A model generated the notes under the pieces. That model was not told the DNA's origin, did no database searches, and was given only the letters and a program-made list of their open reading frames with translations. Positions 1-6,801 of a stretch of DNA of 32,156 nt are shown one piece after another. Source of the stretch: a virus. The position numbers were made by a program, and so were the translations under genes. How positions within the stretch are numbered: position 1 is the first letter of the stretch; the number at the start of each line of letters is the position of its first letter. The stretch covers positions 1 to 32,156 of the IMG/VR virus record IMGVR_UViG_3300030406_001500, one strand, 5' to 3'.

Positions 1-507
1 TCGGCACTCGATCACAAGACGCTGGGCCATGTTGAGCAGCCGTCCCTTCCAACGGGGCAGGCCCGTCCTCTTGTCGATAGCATTGACATGAGTAGTATGC
101 TTGGAACGGTAGACACCCAGAGGCGAATGAACCATACCATTACTACAGACAAACGTCCGGTGGCCCCCGCCCAACTGAAGGCTATGCTTCTTGTTGTGGC
201 TATTGATGAGGAACGCTTCCCACTGGAAGCCCCGTGTAGCGGGGAGATCCTTGTGGGCAATGCCCCAGCCAGCGAACATATTGCTTCGGAAGTCGTCGTT
301 AGTGAGGTAGATAGTCGGCGCACTAAGAACGAATCCCATACGGGACAGGGTATCCTGCACGTATTCGATGGGCTCGTAGTGTGGGATGGGCTGGTGAGAA
401 CGGGTGGCCTGAGGCACGATGCGGTGGCGTCGTACCTGATCCTCCGTCACGAGTGTGCCCCAGTTCTTTGAATCGAAAGGCGTGGGGGATTCTGGTGTTG
501 CGATCAT
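1..507 (-). CDS. DUF932-like phage early protein (3' end beyond window)
   Basis: An open frame starts with ATG at 507 and runs off the left edge, giving 169 visible residues. The start follows a strong AAGGAGAC Shine-Dalgarno and lies one base past the stop of the upstream gene. The product begins MIATPESPTPFDSKNWG. Around residues 100-145 it has NSHNKKHSLQLGGGHRTFVC, then CSNGM and RSKHTTH. This matches the pattern I know from DUF932 proteins of phages and plasmids (NSHD..., VFVCxN, RKHT). The biochemical function of that family is not established, and I infer none. Its place at the end of the early block suggests expression soon after infection. The length is incomplete and the C-terminus is not visible. 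Confidence 0.75.
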   Translation of the reverse strand, partial: MIATPESPTPFDSKNWGTLVTEDQVRRHRIVPQATRSHQPIPHYEPIEYVQDTLSRMGFVLSAPTIYLTNDDFRSNMFAGWGIAHKDLPATRGFQWEAFLINSHNKKHSLQLGGGHRTFVCSNGMVHSPLGVYRSKHTTHVNAIDKRTGLPRWKGRLLNMAQRLVIECR

Positions 508-508
508 T

Positions 509-1285
509 TTAGTCTCCTTGTCGCAAGTTATTCGCTGCTATATTGCCAAAGTGTACAGCACCTCGGCCATGAACAACGATAGAAACACTAGGAATCTTTC
601 TTTTTTTATTGGCGAATCTACCGGCACAGAGCAGGCAGTTATCGCAGGTAGTACGCTTGCCGCCCTCGTCAGACGCAGGGCACATGATCTCCTGATGCAT
701 GAGCGGCTCGTCTGCTGAGCGGCACCTGAATGTCCTCCACCCCATGGCCTGTGCCTGCTCGGCTTCCTCTTGAGTATCGACCGAAGCCATGCACAGGTCC
801 ATCAGGTTGTGGTCACAGGTACGCCATTGGTGTGTATATCCAGTCCAACCAGAAGCATGACGCTTGAGGTAGAGCCAGACATGCGAGGGCACAGCCGCCG
901 GGTCACCATAGGCACCGAAGCGGATACGCCTGCCTTCTGTTATCGCAGATAGTTCGGGTAACCTAGGGTACTTGCCTGCCCGGTAGGACTTCCACACCTG
1001 AAGAGGTGCCTGACCTACATTGACATAGCAAGTACGCTTGCCGTCTACCTTACGGTGAGGACAGTCGCCGCAGATAGACTTATCGTCTCCACTATCCACG
1101 GCATCAGTAGGCCTCATGTTCTGGGGGAGTATCCATGTCTGGATCATGTCCCCCGTTTTCCTGTTGGATGTCTTGAGAGTTGCAATAGCAACGATAGGCT
1201 CACCGTTCAGCAACGATGGGCCTTCCCACAGTAGCGTGCCCCGTAACTTGGGGAGTTGTTTGAGTTCAATCAATAGTCCCTCCAT
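509..1285 (-). CDS. Cys-rich conserved phage early protein, 258 aa
   Basis: The N-terminal part has a conserved-looking block near residues 34-75 (SNRKTGDMIQTWIL, then CGDCPHR and CYVNVGQAP). The C-terminal part has a second Cys cluster near residues 202-221 (MCPAS, TTCDNCLLCAGR). The two clusters suggest metal-binding sites (inference). I recognise it as a phage family of unknown function, which I recall as DUF7227, a label I could not check. The start is ambiguous. ATG 1285 has only an AAAGG abutting it, whereas a GGAGGG sits about 4 bases before an in-frame TTG at 1273. A TTG start would shorten the protein by 4 residues and reduce the overlap with the upstream gene, which ends at 1266. 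Confidence 0.75.
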   Translation of the reverse strand: MEGLLIELKQLPKLRGTLLWEGPSLLNGEPIVAIATLKTSNRKTGDMIQTWILPQNMRPTDAVDSGDDKSICGDCPHRKVDGKRTCYVNVGQAPLQVWKSYRAGKYPRLPELSAITEGRRIRFGAYGDPAAVPSHVWLYLKRHASGWTGYTHQWRTCDHNLMDLCMASVDTQEEAEQAQAMGWRTFRCRSADEPLMHQEIMCPASDEGGKRTTCDNCLLCAGRFANKKRKIPSVSIVVHGRGAVHFGNIAANNLRQGD

Positions 1286-1484
1286 CCTTTATCCGAAAGA
1301 TAGCCGCGGCCTGCTTGTAGTCAGTGCAGTCCGTGAGTCGCAACTCGAACAGGGGACTGTCAAGTTCGGACGGACAAAGCCCATCGTTCAGGTGTTCAAG
1401 GTCCTCGTCAGTGATGATACAGATAGAAGACCCATCTACACCACTCCAAGTTGTTCCGTCATTCAGCACAAGTATCGCTGGCAT
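1266..1484 (-). CDS. small acidic early protein, 72 aa
   Basis: The product starts MPAILVLNDGTTWSGVDGS. Its middle is acidic (ITDEDLEHLNDG), and it ends CTDYKQAAAIFRIKDGGTID. The ATG at 1484 is preceded by a near-perfect AAGGAGGT at good spacing, which decides this start over upstream in-frame codons. The start lies inside the last 26 bases of the upstream gene, and the end overlaps the start of the 258-aa gene, so all three are probably translationally linked. I do not recognise a family. Small acidic early proteins of T7-like phages are often host-takeover factors, but nothing specific here shows that. Confidence 0.7.
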   Translation of the reverse strand: MPAILVLNDGTTWSGVDGSSICIITDEDLEHLNDGLCPSELDSPLFELRLTDCTDYKQAAAIFRIKDGGTID

Positions 1485-1884
1485 TGGGCACCTCCTTCCA
1501 ATCAACAACAACATACGCCTCATCGGGAAGGCCGTAGATGACCACGCTGCTGTAGTCGCCAAAGAACTCGACGATAATGTCGTAGTCGCGGTACTTGGGC
1601 TTGAGTATGTACCTCTCCTGAATAACCGGGAGGTCTGAGTTGTGGTTGGTATACCCCTCCTCGTTGTAGAGCCCGTGTACTGGAGCGTGGTACAGTGGGA
1701 AGTGATCGAGCGAAAGCATTGTGCCATCACCCATGATGTCAATGCTGAACTCGTAGTAGCCATCGACCTCCCACATGGCGGGCTTGTCCTTGATATCGGG
1801 GTCACTGTGCACCCTGATCGACTGAATAGTCGTATCAAAGGCAGAGAACTGTCTCCGCCGGGACTTGATGTTGTACGTCTGCAT
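1459..1884 (-). CDS. hypothetical early protein, 141 aa
   Basis: The product begins MQTYNIKSRRRQFSAFDTTI and is rich in Tyr and Asp, with alternating hydrophobic stretches (YEFSIDIMGDG, YDIIVEFFGDYSSVVIYGL, AYVVVDWKEV) that suggest a mostly beta fold. ATG 1884 follows CAGGAGAC at 6 bases and lies 13 bases after the stop of the preceding gene. An in-frame extension to 1926 would run back through that stop region and lacks a ribosome site, so I reject it. The C-terminus overlaps the next gene by 26 bases. I recognise no family. Confidence 0.7.
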   Translation of the reverse strand: MQTYNIKSRRRQFSAFDTTIQSIRVHSDPDIKDKPAMWEVDGYYEFSIDIMGDGTMLSLDHFPLYHAPVHGLYNEEGYTNHNSDLPVIQERYILKPKYRDYDIIVEFFGDYSSVVIYGLPDEAYVVVDWKEVPNASDTCAE

Positions 1885-1897
1885 GGTGTGTCTCCTG

Positions 1898-2119
1898 TCA
1901 CCTGTAGTCTTCGATCCGTCGGACATTGCCCTTCCTGTCAGTCACGACCATAACGTCACGGGCAAGCGACCCGTCGGCGTTGAGGTATCGTGAAGGGATT
2001 GCGTCCCTCTGGGCTAGGTTGTCCTGATATGCACGGCTACGAGCGTACATCTCCGGTCTGATGGGCATGGCCTCCCGCTCCTCTGGAGTCGGAAGGTACG
2101 GCGGGTTCTGGCTGGGCAT
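1898..2119 (-). CDS. hypothetical early protein, 73 aa
   Basis: This small soluble protein begins MPSQNPPYLPTPEEREAMPI. It is Pro-rich at the N-terminus and charged at the C-terminus (DRKGNVRRIEDYR). ATG 2119 follows AAAGGAGACTACT, a strong Shine-Dalgarno. That site and the first 83 bases of the gene lie inside the end of the upstream 94-aa frame, an unusually long overlap. No motif is recognised. Confidence 0.65.
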   Translation of the reverse strand: MPSQNPPYLPTPEEREAMPIRPEMYARSRAYQDNLAQRDAIPSRYLNADGSLARDVMVVTDRKGNVRRIEDYR

Positions 2120-2321
2120 AGTAGTCTCCTTTGTGAATCCAATGTCCCCGGCGGTCAATCCATGTGACCCAGTCACTGACAGACCAATCCTGACAGTATA
2201 CGCCGGGGTTGTTGCAGAAGTATGAGAAGTATTCAGACTCGCCACTCACTGCGGCTGCCTTCTCGGAGTAGGTGAGGTCGAACTGTACGACATCATGCCT
2301 ACGGGCTATGAGTTTAGTCAT
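2037..2321 (-). CDS. hypothetical early protein, 94 aa
   Basis: ATG 2321 has GGAGGA at good spacing and overlaps the stop of the preceding gene by 8 bases. The first 65 or so residues look like an ordinary folded protein rich in Trp and Tyr (SVSDWVTWIDRRGHWIHKGDYY). The last 25 residues are low-complexity (PSDSRGAGGHAHQTGDVRS) and coincide with the 83-base overlap with the next gene. The tail may be a by-product of encoding two frames, or an old frameshift may have moved the stop downstream. No family is recognised. Confidence 0.6.
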   Translation of the reverse strand: MTKLIARRHDVVQFDLTYSEKAAAVSGESEYFSYFCNNPGVYCQDWSVSDWVTWIDRRGHWIHKGDYYAQPEPAVPSDSRGAGGHAHQTGDVRS

Positions 2322-2562
2322 CGAGATCCTCCTGTGTCATCAGGTAGGTGCATCGGGTGGTGATCTGGCAAGGGGTAGGCACCCCTTCGTCGGCGCCGGC
2401 ACGAAGACTGTCGATCACTCTGCCTCGACGGTCAGCCAGATCCATGTAGTATTCGCAGGACTCAGCGAGCCCGCGAAGAACCTCCATCTCCTGCTGAAGG
2501 GCGGCGATAGCCTTGCCCATCTGCTCAATGGCGGTCGTCAGTCTTGGGGGTTGTCCTCCCAC
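2314..2562 (-). CDS. hypothetical early protein with coiled-coil, GTG start, 82 aa
   Basis: Translation most likely starts at GTG 2562, because AAGGAG lies 7 bases upstream while the first in-frame ATG (2511) has no good ribosome site. A competing ATG 5 bases before the GTG opens only a 9-codon frame. The sequence begins VGGQPPRLTTAIEQMGKAIA. Residues around 12-35 form a likely helix or coiled coil (IEQMGKAIAALQQEMEVLRG), and an acidic tail ends TQEDLDD. The start overlaps the upstream gene by 38 bases and the end overlaps the next by 8. Function unknown. Confidence 0.6.
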   Translation of the reverse strand: MGGQPPRLTTAIEQMGKAIAALQQEMEVLRGLAESCEYYMDLADRRGRVIDSLRAGADEGVPTPCQITTRCTYLMTQEDLDD

Positions 2563-2761
2563 GGCATTTCTCCTTGTAAATGGTTGTGTAGTTTCCGTCA
2601 CTATCCCACTCCCTAACATGAACCTCGTGGTCGGTAGTAATGTACTCGACCCAGATGTCACGCACCGCCTCTACAGCATTGGCGGATGAGATGGGATCTG
2701 AAGACGCAACGAGTTCCCCGCTATCACTGAGAAGAACTACGGTGCAGATCGTCGTGCTCAT
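2525..2761 (-). CDS. hypothetical early protein, 78 aa
   Basis: The product begins MSTTICTVVLLSDSGELVAS and continues with a predicted alpha/beta pattern (AVEAVRDIWVEYITTDHEVHVREWDSDG). A basic tail ends TPKTDDRH. ATG 2761 follows TAGGAGAC at good spacing, while the longer in-frame form from 2818 has no such site. The end overlaps the GTG-started downstream gene. I see no recognisable domain, and the function is unknown. Confidence 0.65.
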   Translation of the reverse strand: MSTTICTVVLLSDSGELVASSDPISSANAVEAVRDIWVEYITTDHEVHVREWDSDGNYTTIYKEKCRGRTTPKTDDRH

Positions 2762-2781
2762 CGCAAGTCTCCTATCTGGGG

Positions 2782-2838
2782 TTACTTCGAGAAGAACAGC
2801 CGCCGAAAGTACGGCCACCTGTAGCGTTCGGTATTCAT
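2782..2838 (-). CDS. possible 18-residue peptide
   Basis: A very short frame, MNTERYRWPYFRRLFFSK, starts one base after the stop of the zinc-ribbon gene. It has AGGGAG 7 bases before its ATG and fills a gap otherwise too wide for this compact region. The peptide is basic and aromatic. A frame this short could arise by chance, and the gap could equally be leader for the next gene. Confidence 0.3.
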   Translation of the reverse strand: MNTERYRWPYFRRLFFSK

Positions 2839-2839
2839 A

Positions 2840-3037
2840 TCAATACTCCCTATCTGATGGGGTTCCTTTCTTACAACTGCACGGTCCTCCCCACTGCCCG
2901 CACCGAATGCAACTCCTTGCCGCGTTCGTTATTGGCTTGAGCATCGGCTTCCACTGACACTCAACGCACAGGTCGATGGCGAGGATCTTACTGATGGGTG
3001 CCCCGCACTTTGCGCAGGGTCTGGGGTCTGAACGCAT
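2840..3037 (-). CDS. small zinc-ribbon-like early protein, 65 aa
   Basis: Four Cys pairs are spread over 65 residues: CAKC near residues 8-11, CVEC near 24-27, CIRC near 43-46 and CSC near 53-55. This pattern fits one or two structural zinc sites. The sequence begins MRSDPRPCAKCGAPISKILA. ATG 3037 follows AGGAGC. The neighbours are small early genes. In T7-like phages, early zinc-ribbon proteins may bind host RNA polymerase or nucleic acid, but no specific family is identified and that role is only a possibility. Confidence 0.7.
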   Translation of the reverse strand: MRSDPRPCAKCGAPISKILAIDLCVECQWKPMLKPITNAARSCIRCGQWGGPCSCKKGTPSDREY

Positions 3038-3052
3038 GGTGTTGCTCCTGTG

Positions 3053-3391
3053 TCAGTTGGCGGCGATGATCCGGTACGATCCGTTCGCGTCGATGGCCTC
3101 GATCTCGACCCCATCGGGAAGGGACTCCGAAGGGATGCAGTTGAGGTGGCACGGGATGGTAGCACTCCTGTCCCTGTCGGGGAAAGCCGTCAGGTGCCAC
3201 TCGCACAGAGAGTCGTGCCCGTGCTTCGCCCTGACGGGACCCTTCTTGCTGTCCACGGTATTATCGTGGAAGGTAAGACGAATGTCCTCCGTGCGGAGGC
3301 CGAAGTGCTGGACGCAAGCATTCCGGACACGCCGGGCCAGCCGGGCCGACAGGTTCGTGTCCTTATAACTCAACATCTTCTTCTTTGCCAT
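3053..3391 (-). CDS. hypothetical early protein, 112 aa (153 aa if GTG start)
   Basis: The favoured start is ATG 3391 (MAKKKMLSYKDTNLSARLAR), 8 bases after GGAG. The N-terminus is strongly basic, which could suit nucleic-acid binding. The middle (IRLTFHDNTVDSKKGP) and the C-terminal half (LPDGVEIEAIDANGSYRII) look like beta strands. An in-frame GTG at 3514 also has AAGGAG close upstream and would add 41 residues, but that extension has random-looking composition, so I prefer the shorter form. No family is recognised. Confidence 0.65.
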   Translation of the reverse strand: MAKKKMLSYKDTNLSARLARRVRNACVQHFGLRTEDIRLTFHDNTVDSKKGPVRAKHGHDSLCEWHLTAFPDRDRSATIPCHLNCIPSESLPDGVEIEAIDANGSYRIIAAN

Positions 3392-3571
3392 TGGATTGTC
3401 TCCGTGAATACTGACGGTCACCATTGACCAGACAGACGAGGGGGCAGCCGGGAAGGCAGGGCGGTCCACGTTCGGGAGGAACAACGAGTCCCTTGATCCC
3501 GACGGCGGTCGCACCTTACTCCTTACCGGCCACCCCCTTGACTGTGTGGACAGACAGAGGGAGAGACACCC
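3392..3571. other. 180-bp gap without a supported gene
   Basis: Between the micropeptide and the 112-aa gene the minus strand has only the optional GTG-started extension described for that gene. Frames on the plus strand here lack ribosome sites and run against all neighbours. No terminator hairpin with a T-tract and no clear promoter was seen. Confidence 0.4.
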
Positions 3572-3664
3572 CTACTCCCAGTCAAAGAACAGGGGAGCAA
3601 GCGTAGCCACCAGCCCGAAGCCGATGAGAAGAACGAGAACAATATATCCGTAAATCTCAGCCAT
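3572..3664 (-). CDS. 30-residue membrane micropeptide
   Basis: The whole product is a short N-terminus (MAEIYGY), one hydrophobic span (IVLVLLIGFGLVATLAPLFF) and a DWE tail, so it should sit in the inner membrane as a single helix. Its ATG shares one base with the TGA of the upstream 70-aa gene (TGATG), and the Shine-Dalgarno-like AAGGGGGAC lies in the end of that gene, indicating translational coupling. It is followed by about 180 bases without an obvious gene. Small early membrane peptides occur in T7-like phages as modulators of the host envelope. No homologue is recognised. Confidence 0.6.
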   Translation of the reverse strand: MAEIYGYIVLVLLIGFGLVATLAPLFFDWE

Positions 3665-3876
3665 CACTTGTCCCCCTTCTGAGCATCCACCAAGGCCACG
3701 GTAACCGAAGCCTTGACAAGCGAGTCGATCTCGCCCATCAGGAACTCGTTGCTGAACTCCTGCCCATCGTTGATCTTGTGGATACGATCCTCAATGAGCC
3801 TTCGCAATGTCTGCGCGGCAAACCTGAGACCTTCCAGCGCGAGCGATTCCTGATTGTTCACGGTACTATCAGCCAT
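3664..3876 (-). CDS. small helical early protein, 70 aa
   Basis: The product begins MADSTVNNQESLALEGLRFA and looks wholly helical and charged (LRRLIEDRIHKINDG, then SLVKASVTVALVDAQKGDK). ATG 3876 is preceded by AAGGAGG at good spacing. An in-frame codon at 3894 has no such site and falls on the terminator T-tract. A terminator-like hairpin lies directly upstream (3893-3931), so this gene needs either readthrough or a local promoter. It is coupled to the 30-residue membrane peptide by a TGATG overlap. Function unknown. Confidence 0.7.
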   Translation of the reverse strand: MADSTVNNQESLALEGLRFAAQTLRRLIEDRIHKINDGQEFSNEFLMGEIDSLVKASVTVALVDAQKGDK

Positions 3877-3892
3877 TGTTGGCCTCCTTATC

Positions 3893-3931
3893 AAAAGAAA
3901 AACCCCCCAGTACCTTTCGATACTGAGGGGT
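3893..3931 (-). terminator. intrinsic terminator, downstream copy of a duplicated hairpin
   Basis: On the minus strand a 12-bp stem (CCCCTCAGTATC with GGTACTGGGGGG, two G-U pairs) closes a GAAA tetraloop and is followed by TTTTTCTTTT. The 33-base hairpin core is identical to that at 3991-4023. The T-tract ends only a few bases before the ribosome site of the 70-aa gene, so the hairpin could also act as an mRNA processing or stabilising element. Confidence 0.8.
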
Positions 3932-3990
3932 CTAGAGCCTCACTTCCGGCGGATCGGACATAACTGCCACTGCCTGAGTTATTACTCTAT
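3932..3990. other. spacer between the two identical terminators
   Basis: The 59 bases between the two hairpin copies hold no gene. A promoter for the downstream early genes could lie here, since both flanking hairpins read as minus-strand terminators. I see no convincing sigma70 pair. Confidence 0.3.
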
Positions 3991-4023
3991 AAAACCCCCC
4001 AGTACCTTTCGATACTGAGGGGT
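3991..4023 (-). terminator. intrinsic terminator, upstream copy of a duplicated hairpin
   Basis: This copy has the same 12-bp GAAA-loop hairpin as 3893-3931. It is followed on the minus strand by TTTTATAG, a shorter T-tract. It lies 28 bases after the stop of the 129-aa gene, so it closes a single-gene transcription unit driven by the promoter near 5030. Confidence 0.8.
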
Positions 4024-4051
4024 GGGGTAGTGTGCCGAAGCACGCCCAACG

Positions 4052-4441
4052 TCAGCCCTTGAGCAGGGCCTTGACGCGGACGCGGGCTTCGGAAGCGGTG
4101 ACACGTGCCCCGAGATTGGGGTCGCATTCACCACCATAACGGAGGAAGACATCCTGGCGCGTGACCCCACCCTTGGCCGTGGTGCCCGCAGGCATGGCAC
4201 GGAGGGTGGACCGAAGGTGACGCAGGAAGTGGACGTACTTCAGGAAAGCAGCGGTACACTTCTTGTCGGAAACCTTCGAGTCGATGTCAGAACGCACGAC
4301 CATACGGTTGAACGCCTTCCACTGCTTCTCCACCGTCTCCGCCTCGTGAGCCAGAGCCGTCAGCGCGAGAGCATCCGACGGAGTGGCATCGTTGGAGGGA
4401 ACGGCGAGAATGTCCGAAACGGTAGTTGTGGTGTTAGCCAT
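4052..4441 (-). CDS. first early gene, hypothetical protein, 129 aa
   Basis: The product begins MANTTTTVSDILAVPSNDAT. It has a Thr/Ala-rich flexible N-terminus of about 25 residues, then a helical, basic body (VEKQWKAFNRMVVRS, AAFLKYVHFLRHLRSTLRAM) ending RVRVKALLKG. ATG 4441 has GGAGAC about 9 bases upstream. It is the first gene after the sigma70-type promoter and long leader and is closed by a terminator 28 bases past its stop, so host polymerase probably transcribes it strongly and alone. That is the slot of T7 0.3 (the Ocr anti-restriction protein), but this protein is basic and not an Ocr look-alike. It could be an immediate-early anti-host or antitermination factor. Both are guesses. 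Confidence 0.7.
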   Translation of the reverse strand: MANTTTTVSDILAVPSNDATPSDALALTALAHEAETVEKQWKAFNRMVVRSDIDSKVSDKKCTAAFLKYVHFLRHLRSTLRAMPAGTTAKGGVTRQDVFLRYGGECDPNLGARVTASEARVRVKALLKG

Positions 4442-5015
4442 TGGCTTGTGTCTCCAAGTATTGCAGGGGACAATCCCCCTACGAAGACCCCCGGCTACCA
4501 GTAGGCAGCCGGGGGGTTACACACTTGAATAGTCCCAGCGATCAGAGCAGCATCCCCTAGCCGGACCGTTGGATGCCGGGGGGTGCTACTCTAGACACCT
4601 GATCCCCGGACTAGTCCCTACCCTTGAACAAGGGCGTACTCTTACGTCCGTGGGGGTCCCCGGCTTGACACAGATACCGTTTCCAGTACCCCGCTATCCC
4701 GGGATAGAGCCACCGACCTTGATACCTCGTTTCGTCCCGGTCCTAGTAGACCGCTGGAGGGATACCCTTTAGGCTTCCGATTCCCGAAGGCCGACACGCT
4801 GCTACACGCGAAGACCCCCGTCCTCATGACCCGGTCCAGTACCCCCCTCGCTTGTTTGGCCGAGGGTTTCACCGCAAGGGAGGGTATAACGAGGTGCCGA
4901 GTCTCGATGCCTCCCTGTTCTAGACCCCTGTCCTGCTATTCTCAACAGGGGTTGGAGCACTGGTGGCTTGCTACGCTGGGTTGTCGGTTCCGGGTTCCTT
5001 TCATGACCCGTTGCC
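4442..5015 (-). other. long GC-rich hairpin-forming early leader
   Basis: About 570 bases separate the promoter near 5030 from the first early gene, with no gene in between. The stretch is full of short inverted repeats: a 12-bp stem at 4488-4515, CCCTTGAACAAGGG at 4621-4634, TATCCCGGGATA at 4695-4706, and ACCCCTGT/ACAGGGGT arms near 4923-4951. It also has direct repeats: CGAAGACCCCCG at 4482 and 4809, TCCAGTACCCC at 4682 and 4835, TCATGACCCG at 4824 and 5001. It could be a structured RNA, processing sites, or part of the terminal repeat or packaging region. None of these is proven. Confidence 0.5.
4488..4515 (-). other. strong leader hairpin before the first early gene
   Basis: CCCCCGGCTACC and GGCAGCCGGGGG form a 12-bp stem around a 4-base loop, about 50-75 bases before the ATG of the 129-aa gene. 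There is no T-tract in either direction, so a processing or structural role is likelier than termination. Confidence 0.6.
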
Positions 5016-5044
5016 AATGTATATATCGGCTGGACGCCTGTCAA
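5016..5044 (-). promoter_or_regulatory. early sigma70-type promoter
   Basis: The minus strand carries a perfect TTGACA (5044-5039), a 17-base spacer, and TACATT (5021-5016), which matches four of six -10 positions. An overlapping TATATACA run gives alternative -10 registers. It points at the long leader and the first early gene, and lies just downstream of the dyad array. This is where a T7-like phage would need host-polymerase promoters. Confidence 0.65.
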
Positions 5045-5083: not shown

Positions 5084-5112
5084 TGTAAGTCCTTTGGTGA
5101 CAAGGGTTTACA
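5084..5112. repeat. 29-bp dyad repeat, copy A
   Basis: TGTAAGTCCTT and AAGGGTTTACA flank a 7-base centre (TGGTGAC). It matches copy C at 26 of 29 positions, with the left arm degenerate. It lies about 40 bases upstream of the -35 box of the early promoter, a place for an activator or repressor site. Confidence 0.75.
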
Positions 5113-5145
5113 AGCGGAATATTTATTTATATTGTCCTAAACTAA

Positions 5146-5174
5146 TGTAAGTCGTTTGGTACCAAGGGTTTATA
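5146..5174. repeat. 29-bp dyad repeat, copy B
   Basis: The sequence runs TGTAAGTCGTT, TGGTACC, AAGGGTTTATA and matches copy C at 23 of 29 positions. The stretch to copy A (5113-5145) is very AT-rich (AATATTTATTTATATT), and an A-run follows copy B. This resembles a duplex-unwinding stretch or upstream promoter element. Confidence 0.7.
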
Positions 5175-5195
5175 AAAAAAACACCGGGGGCCACG

Positions 5196-5224
5196 TGTAA
5201 ACCCTTTGGTGTCAAGGGTTTACA
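5196..5224. repeat. 29-bp dyad repeat, copy C (perfect arms)
   Basis: TGTAAACCCTT and AAGGGTTTACA are perfect 11-base inverted arms around TGGTGTC. All three copies have the same orientation and share the TTTGGT centre, so the element has a direction despite its dyad. A CCACGTG hexamer core overlaps its left edge. It could be a protein-binding operator, replication origin iteron or phage-specific regulatory site. Confidence 0.8.
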
Positions 5225-5513
5225 GGCATTCGGTGCTCGTGGGGTGACGAGGGGCATTCACCCGTGTATCCGGATGGATGGATGAAAGGTAGGGGGCCCA
5301 TTGTTCCACGTGGAACCACCCCCGGCCCCCCGGCAGACCCAGGATATCCTCGCGTTGCGATTGAGTCTCAGTCTCAAGTACCCCCCATGGGGGTCCCTGC
5401 GGGGCCCCGCGGCGATTTCAGGGTTTCAGATTTTTTCTTCTAAAAAGTCCCAAGGGCACACAGAGCCATACGGGGGATTTCCAACAGGATGTAGAGACGG
5501 GGCCAGAAGAGCA
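5225..5513. other. gene-free GC-rich stretch after the last late gene
   Basis: This stretch holds no supported gene. It contains a GGATGGATGGATG short tandem repeat near 5272, the parS-like palindrome at 5303-5316, AGGATATCCT near 5341, CCCCCATGGGGG near 5382-5393 and GCGGGGCCCCGC near 5399-5410. The last two could form hairpins on either strand but lack adjacent T-tracts. This is the likeliest place for the physical genome end or packaging signal (inference from gene order). Confidence 0.45.
5303..5316. promoter_or_regulatory. parS-like palindrome
   Basis: GTTCCACGTGGAAC is a perfect 14-base palindrome. It keeps the CACGTG core and the outer GTT/AAC of the bacterial chromosomal parS consensus TGTTTCACGTGAAACA, differing by a symmetrical T-to-C/A-to-G pair; the flanking T at 5302 also matches. 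It might bind host ParB or another CACGTG-recognising protein. No parA or parB gene is visible in the window. Confidence 0.4.
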
Positions 5514-6618: not shown

Positions 6619-6801
6619 TTAGGGCCCCTTCTTAAACTCAGCCAATTGAATTTCCTCGATTACGGACTCAGGAAGGCTGTATAGTAATTCTCGCATATTC
6701 TCCGCCAGTGAGTGCTTGTCCCGTAGTTCCAGCAGGTATTCGCAGTAACTAAGGATGACCTCCTTGGCGGCTTCAATGACATCATCGTTATTTAAATCCA
6801 T
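6619..6801 (-). CDS. small acidic helical late protein, 60 aa
   Basis: The product begins MDLNNDDVIEAAKEVILSYC and is helical and acidic throughout (EYLLELRDKHSLAENMRELL). Its start overlaps the last 10 bases of the large terminase gene, and only a weak GGAAAC precedes ATG 6801, so it probably depends on terminase translation. No family recognised. Confidence 0.65.
   Translation of the reverse strand: MDLNNDDVIEAAKEVILSYCEYLLELRDKHSLAENMRELLYSLPESVIEEIQLAEFKKGP

Follow-up and report, generated by a model that had tools for sequence, protein, structure and literature searches.

We found that the window, the whole stretch of 32,156 nucleotides that was analysed (positions 1 to 32,156 of the IMG/VR virus record IMGVR_UViG_3300030406_001500), contains three 29-bp dyads upstream of a predicted early promoter. 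These dyads belong to a family of elements found upstream of predicted early promoters in uncultured phages, and in the window phage they are joined to a predicted terminator. On balance, we consider it probable that the array is the control region of the junction between late and early genes, in which the distal dyad (C) would act as a terminator and the middle (B) and promoter-proximal (A) dyads would be bound by a dimeric protein that most likely activates early transcription in the class I manner.

All three dyads were assigned to the minus strand, with A at 5084-5112, B at 5146-5174 and C at 5196-5224 and steps of 62 and 50 bp, and the order of transcription on this strand is C, B, A and then the promoter. 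The initial annotation had described three copies in the same orientation that shared 23 to 26 of 29 positions with a perfect copy, and this was borne out by the mismatch counts: C is a perfect palindrome with no mismatch (29 of 29), and A and B contained 3 and 6 mismatches, respectively (26 and 23 of 29). The TTTGGT centre was present in all three copies and the arms of A and B were unequal, with an ACCC arm upstream and a GTC arm downstream; therefore, the copies are directional, as had been proposed. The linker flanked by A and B (5113-5145) was AT-rich, in agreement with the same annotation. The predicted early promoter (5016-5044, minus strand) consisted of TTGACA at 5044-5039, a 17-bp spacer and TACATT at 5021-5016, with 10 of 12 matches, and its spacer contained GCCGATA at 5030-5024, which was kept in relatives. 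Dyad A ended 39 bp before the -35 box, close to the distance of about 40 bp from a perfect TTGACA that had been noted, and the array lies upstream of the promoter because the minus strand carries this TTGACA. A model of the half-sites, derived from other phages, detected exactly dyads A, B and C in the window and zero sites in 60 dinucleotide shuffles. Likewise, none of 60 dinucleotide shuffles contained a pair of 29-mers matching at at least 23 of 29 positions within 130 bp. The description as a three-copy array was thus correct in that the copies are real, but A, B and C are not equivalent sites because C is part of a terminator-like hairpin.

As judged from its protein families, the window belongs to a T7-like phage with late genes on the minus strand; these late families included primase/helicase, DNA polymerase, exonuclease, head-tail adaptor, capsid, tail proteins, internal virion proteins and large terminase. 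The large terminase gene ended at 6792, and the next gene, beside the array, encoded a small basic protein (5810-5514, minus strand; phrog_7595), weak relatives of which (approximately 30% identity over 77 amino acids) were observed in the large phages G419, G410 and G404. The early side of the window extended from approximately 5044 down to 1, and the genes predicted to be read from the early promoter occupied 1-4441 on the minus strand, with the first likely ORF at 4441-4052 and a phrog_2554 gene at 1285-509. Since the late end, with the terminase and the small basic protein, meets the early side, the record seems to join both ends of a linear T7-like genome; the stretch expected to carry the RNA polymerase is missing from the record. 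No clear gene was found in the approximately 560 bases that separate the first likely ORF from the predicted early promoter (4442-5008, minus strand), and Rfam searched at the gathering threshold gave no entry within this region. Additionally, a terminator-like sequence, CCCCTCAGTATCGAAAGGTACTGGGGGGTTTT, was present twice in tandem at 3898-4022 on the minus strand.

The search of related phage genomes recommended with the initial annotation located the array in relatives and dyads in large phages as well. The closest long relative (G392, 36.7 kb), whose maturase B was 98% identical, contained A and B at a 62-bp step, as in the window. Across five relatives, A matched at 26-28 of 29 positions and B at 22-29 of 29 (28-29 in four relatives and 22 in L006), and the corresponding values in the same relatives were 9-31 of 33 for the A-B linker, 20-39 of 41 for the spacer and 13-27 of 28-29 for the promoter. 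Based on these identities, the conservation of A and B exceeds that of the adjoining sequence; the difference is clearest in L014 and L051 and, in the case of A, also in L006. We looked in these close relatives for arms that were lost amid conserved flanking DNA and found the opposite, as A and B were kept and the flanks had mostly drifted. A relative with 69% maturase identity contained one dyad before a similar promoter core.

Dyad C lay inside a longer inverted repeat ending in eight T. The minus-strand RNA of this hairpin (5174-5238) folded with -30.2 kcal/mol (z -6.2), which no shuffle equalled, and was followed by a T8 tail that corresponds to the A-run at 5174-5181 on the plus strand; the hairpin faces late transcription. 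Dyad C matched at 21-24 of 29 positions in the four relatives covering it, and the C hairpins of four relatives folded with -24 to -31 kcal/mol despite outer stems that differed in sequence. The terminator-like fold with its T tail was present in five phages. RNA folding revealed no structure for B (z +0.7) and a weak one for A (z -2.05), and the characteristics of an intrinsic terminator, namely a stable hairpin, a U tract and retention in relatives, were found for copy C alone. Most simply, the C hairpin would terminate late transcription.

When IMG/VR was scanned with one half of the dyad motif, 47 stretches were obtained, which came from close relatives and from unrelated large phages. The motif of the large phages was CGTAANNNNTT-N7-AANNNNTTACG; it was often paired at a distance of 53 bp, and a scan for such pairs identified at least 120 viral stretches. 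Dyad half-sites paired at this distance were found in more than 100 stretches of viral contigs, mainly from a large uncultured myovirus lineage, and a dataset of 235 distinct pairs at 116 loci was compiled from the matches listed. In six large-phage records, 50 of the 55 adjacent spacings below 150 bp were exactly 53 bp. The dyads were restricted to one early-type block of 5-20 kb in each of these six records, which spanned 20 of 231 kb in G419, 18.5 of 200 kb in G410, 17 of the 160 kb examined in G404, 17 of 76 kb in G401, 12 of the 40 kb examined in G417 and 5 of the 40 kb examined in G403. Each large-phage record contained dyads at 4 to 17 places, mostly as pairs before promoters. The blocks were composed of short operons with every promoter on one strand, and in a stretch that we inspected visually every pair lay in the gap between two short operons, behind the first and ahead of the promoter of the second. 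The stretches between pairs contained short SD-led ORFs, which ruled out a non-coding reading of these regions. The GC content of the dyad block was 5 to 10 points above that of the rest (G419, G410, G404, G401, G417 and G403; L410-L447), and in this respect the block resembles an acquired or separately evolving island.

The large-phage records had capsid, sheath and terminase proteins in common where these were compared, and they were far from named phages, with a terminase identity of 20-32%. BLAST comparison of the array and two pair elements with named phages gave nothing or short weak matches, and the examined parts of HTVC109P, LUZ100, CRP-171, S2B, jiawei, CRP-403 and MaeS contained no dyads. 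No description of the dyad element was found in the literature searched. Among the three options offered in the initial annotation, a regulatory element fits best, but it is not phage-specific, as the dyads are common to many other phages.

A scan for pairs 58 bp apart, which was meant as an out-of-phase control, identified a second phage set (L482-L513 and L524), in which a GACCCC-GGGGTC hairpin followed by a T run lies between the two dyads. This dyad-hairpin-dyad element was present as tandem copies in some records, such as L513 and L487, and 14 of 23 elements had TTGTCA at 20-49 bp downstream; the GCCGATA core was not found in this set. The terminase of the second set showed approximately 26% identity to that of the first lineage. 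A 6.7-kb contig from a Flavobacteriales MAG (L153) contained a terminator followed by three dyads, spaced at 59 and 50 bp and immediately preceding TTGACA, and encoded a phrog_1221 (DUF932-type) protein; it looks like a phage early-region contig misplaced in this bin. The dyad-to-dyad spacings across phages were 53, 58, 62/50 and 59/50 bp; the 58-bp and 62/50 steps indicate that this spacing is not universal, and the 58-bp set that it is not universally phased.

Outward of the pairs, we observed a recurrent order of TTGACA, GCCGATA in the spacer and TA(G/T)AAT. CGATA was found near 206 of the 235 listed pairs (280 occurrences, compared with 41 for the reverse complement control) and was absent nearby in 29, and GCCGATA was frequent at the promoters of other dyad-bearing phages. 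The spacer GCCGATA of the window (5024-5030) and of the large-phage promoters resembles the -10 element of flagellar sigma-28 promoters. The gaps from dyad to TTGAC clustered at 18, 28-29, 39 and approximately 50 bp. After near-duplicates were removed, these gaps were phased with R(10.5) = 0.57 and a best period of 10.7 (n = 110, p = 3e-16), where the p-value is too small because related promoters, which were treated as independent, are not; the peaks were plain and recurred within single records. Reversed motifs showed no gap phasing. The gap of 39 bp in the window falls on a phasing peak. The best -35 candidates of L014 and L051 started 34 bp from dyad A, which is off the favoured spacing, and no clear -35 box was found near dyad A in L006. 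Of the features that characterize class I activator sites, the position upstream of the -35 box was observed in the window and the helical phasing in other phages, L014 and L051 excepted.

The inner arm bases of the large-phage dyads paired less than arms shuffled among sites (z -3.5 for the distal and -4.7 for the proximal dyad), although with other positions and another filter this deficit was significant for the proximal dyad alone (-4.4). Within an element, no covariation was observed between opposed arms of its two dyads (dL-pR, z -1.4; dR-pL, z -0.2). Because the arms under-pair and do not covary, hairpins, cruciforms and folded recombination sites are disfavoured, and the arm statistics speak for a protein that would read double-stranded half-sites. 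The fixed TAA, TT, AA and TTA positions are a product of the search pattern and have no evidential value.

The nearest alternative is that the dyads are repressor operators that shut off early genes by looping between dyads on the same helix face. Activator and repressor are indistinguishable from sequence, and the paired sites, the exact 53-bp spacing of approximately five turns and the helical phasing would fit a looping repressor equally well. The dyads are, however, located upstream of the -35 box, with gaps of 18-50 bp, and not over the core promoter, the usual place of repressor binding, and we regard repression as rather unlikely. We assign a lower probability, and consider it improbable, that the dyads are recombination sites (attC-like or the core of a tyrosine recombinase site) through which early-gene cassettes are swapped between phages. 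The 11-7-11 layout, the cassettes of approximately 1 kb within one GC-richer block, the tandem elements of L513 and L487 and the comparable palindromes that some bacteria have close to tRNA genes would agree with such exchange. Against it, no member of the tyrosine recombinase family PF00589 was detected in the window, in G392 or in the 21 large-phage records that were searched, although a host enzyme could take its place, and helical phasing to a promoter is not predicted by recombination. An integron attC or tyrosine-recombinase site was set aside for want of an encoded PF00589 recombinase and of covariation between the opposed arms.

A replication origin, one of the options of the initial annotation, or a genome-end packaging signal, in which an initiator or the terminase would recognise the dyads, would suit the location at the junction of the late end with the early genes, which is the terminal-repeat position in T7-like phages, and also the AT-rich A-B linker. 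The dyads nevertheless track promoters, and the 4 to 17 places per record in other phages, mostly before promoters, make an origin unlikely; up to 17 dyad clusters in one block of large phages disfavour a single origin or packaging site. We consider this explanation very improbable. The least probable reading, to which we give hardly any weight, is that A, B and C are all RNA hairpins serving as terminators or processing sites, as the strong fold of C with its T8 tail might suggest; B did not fold and A folded weakly, and the inner arm bases of the large-phage dyads paired less than shuffled arms.

The regulator would more likely come from the host or be carried in the virion, and so be in place at the entry of the phage DNA, than be made anew by the phage, since the site serves a promoter that the host polymerase must read first. 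Protein comparison of the window and the large-phage sets revealed no shared phage-encoded regulator. The window and the large phages showed weak protein matches only, the best being the small basic protein (approximately 30% identity), and the early gene common to two large-phage sets was not recognisable as a DNA-binding protein. Single dyads were found in 28 of 129 Planctomycetota genomes (three with the reversed control), 9 of 125 Verrucomicrobiota genomes and 1 of 114 Gammaproteobacteria genomes. The Planctomycetota dyads were not tied to the promoter motif (10 sites versus 13 in the control), the pair pattern was present in 0 of 289 Alphaproteobacteria, and no bacterial group with a matching dyad regulon was found among the groups scanned. 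Palindromes like TAAGTCGTTGATACTCAACGACTTA were observed in intergenic regions of Akkermansia, Planctomycetota and Spirochaetes (L309, L455, L122, L128 and L295-L304); several adjoin tRNA genes, they were not linked to the promoter motif, and they may be integration sites.

An actinobacterial host, an idea derived from the TAGAAT -10 boxes, was weakened by the lack of WhiB in 46 records. Two known operators were compared with the dyads and rejected. The BirA operator has the consensus TTGTAAACC-N14/15-GGTTTACAA (PMC545781). The corresponding arrangement in copy C, TGTAAACC-N13-GGTTTACA, is one or two bases short, A and B each contain one such half-site, and the consensus of the dyad family is GTAAGTC. 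The TyrR box is TGTAAA-N6-TTTACA, whereas the gap in copy C is 17 and not 6.

In the mechanism that we propose, dyad C would be the heart of an intrinsic terminator that halts late transcripts, and B and A would be bound as double-stranded sites by a dimeric protein. This protein, held on a fixed helix face upstream of the -35 box in the style of a class I activator, would help the host RNA polymerase to start the early genes. The same dyad-plus-promoter module would head the short operons of the early-type block in the large uncultured myovirus lineage. Phages of different families usually have their own control sites; if the reading is true, a promoter-phased dyad common to a T7-like phage and a myovirus lineage would point to a common regulator that switches on the first genes. 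A bolder and tentative extension, which we hold to be possible but doubtful, is that of a shared early-gene enhancer, whereby one conserved regulator, probably a host protein present at infection, is used across phage families and promoter types and its sites mark host-takeover blocks. The dyad also provides a sequence signature by which likely host-takeover blocks of uncultured phages can be recognised, and it could serve as bait in the search for its binding protein and for the host.

Comparison with known systems revealed both similarities and differences. In T7, the A1-A3 promoters at the left end of the early region are read by host RNA polymerase, and the window phage likewise has a predicted early promoter for host RNA polymerase; T7 is not known to contain a comparable dyad array. 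In mycobacteriophage L5, the repressor binds stoperators, which are short, asymmetric and distributed across the genome. Like the stoperators, the dyads are repeated phage sites with a conserved direction; unlike them, they are 29-bp dyads limited to one block and located upstream of promoters. The Bacillus phage SPO1 contains a host-takeover module with many strong early promoters, and the dyad phages similarly have a single block in which small genes are arranged in short operons and every operon has a promoter. They differ from the SPO1 module in that a dyad pair heads each operon and in that early expression is presumed for the dyad phages. The class I sites of CRP lie upstream of the -35 box and act via the alpha subunit of the polymerase (PMC2859248). 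As in CRP-type class I sites at sigma-70 promoters, the dyads are situated upstream of the -35 box at helix-phased distances; in contrast to the CRP site, whose consensus (TGTGA-N6-TCACA) is dissimilar, the element is a 29-bp dyad with 11-bp half-sites 7 bp apart and is usually present in two or three copies.
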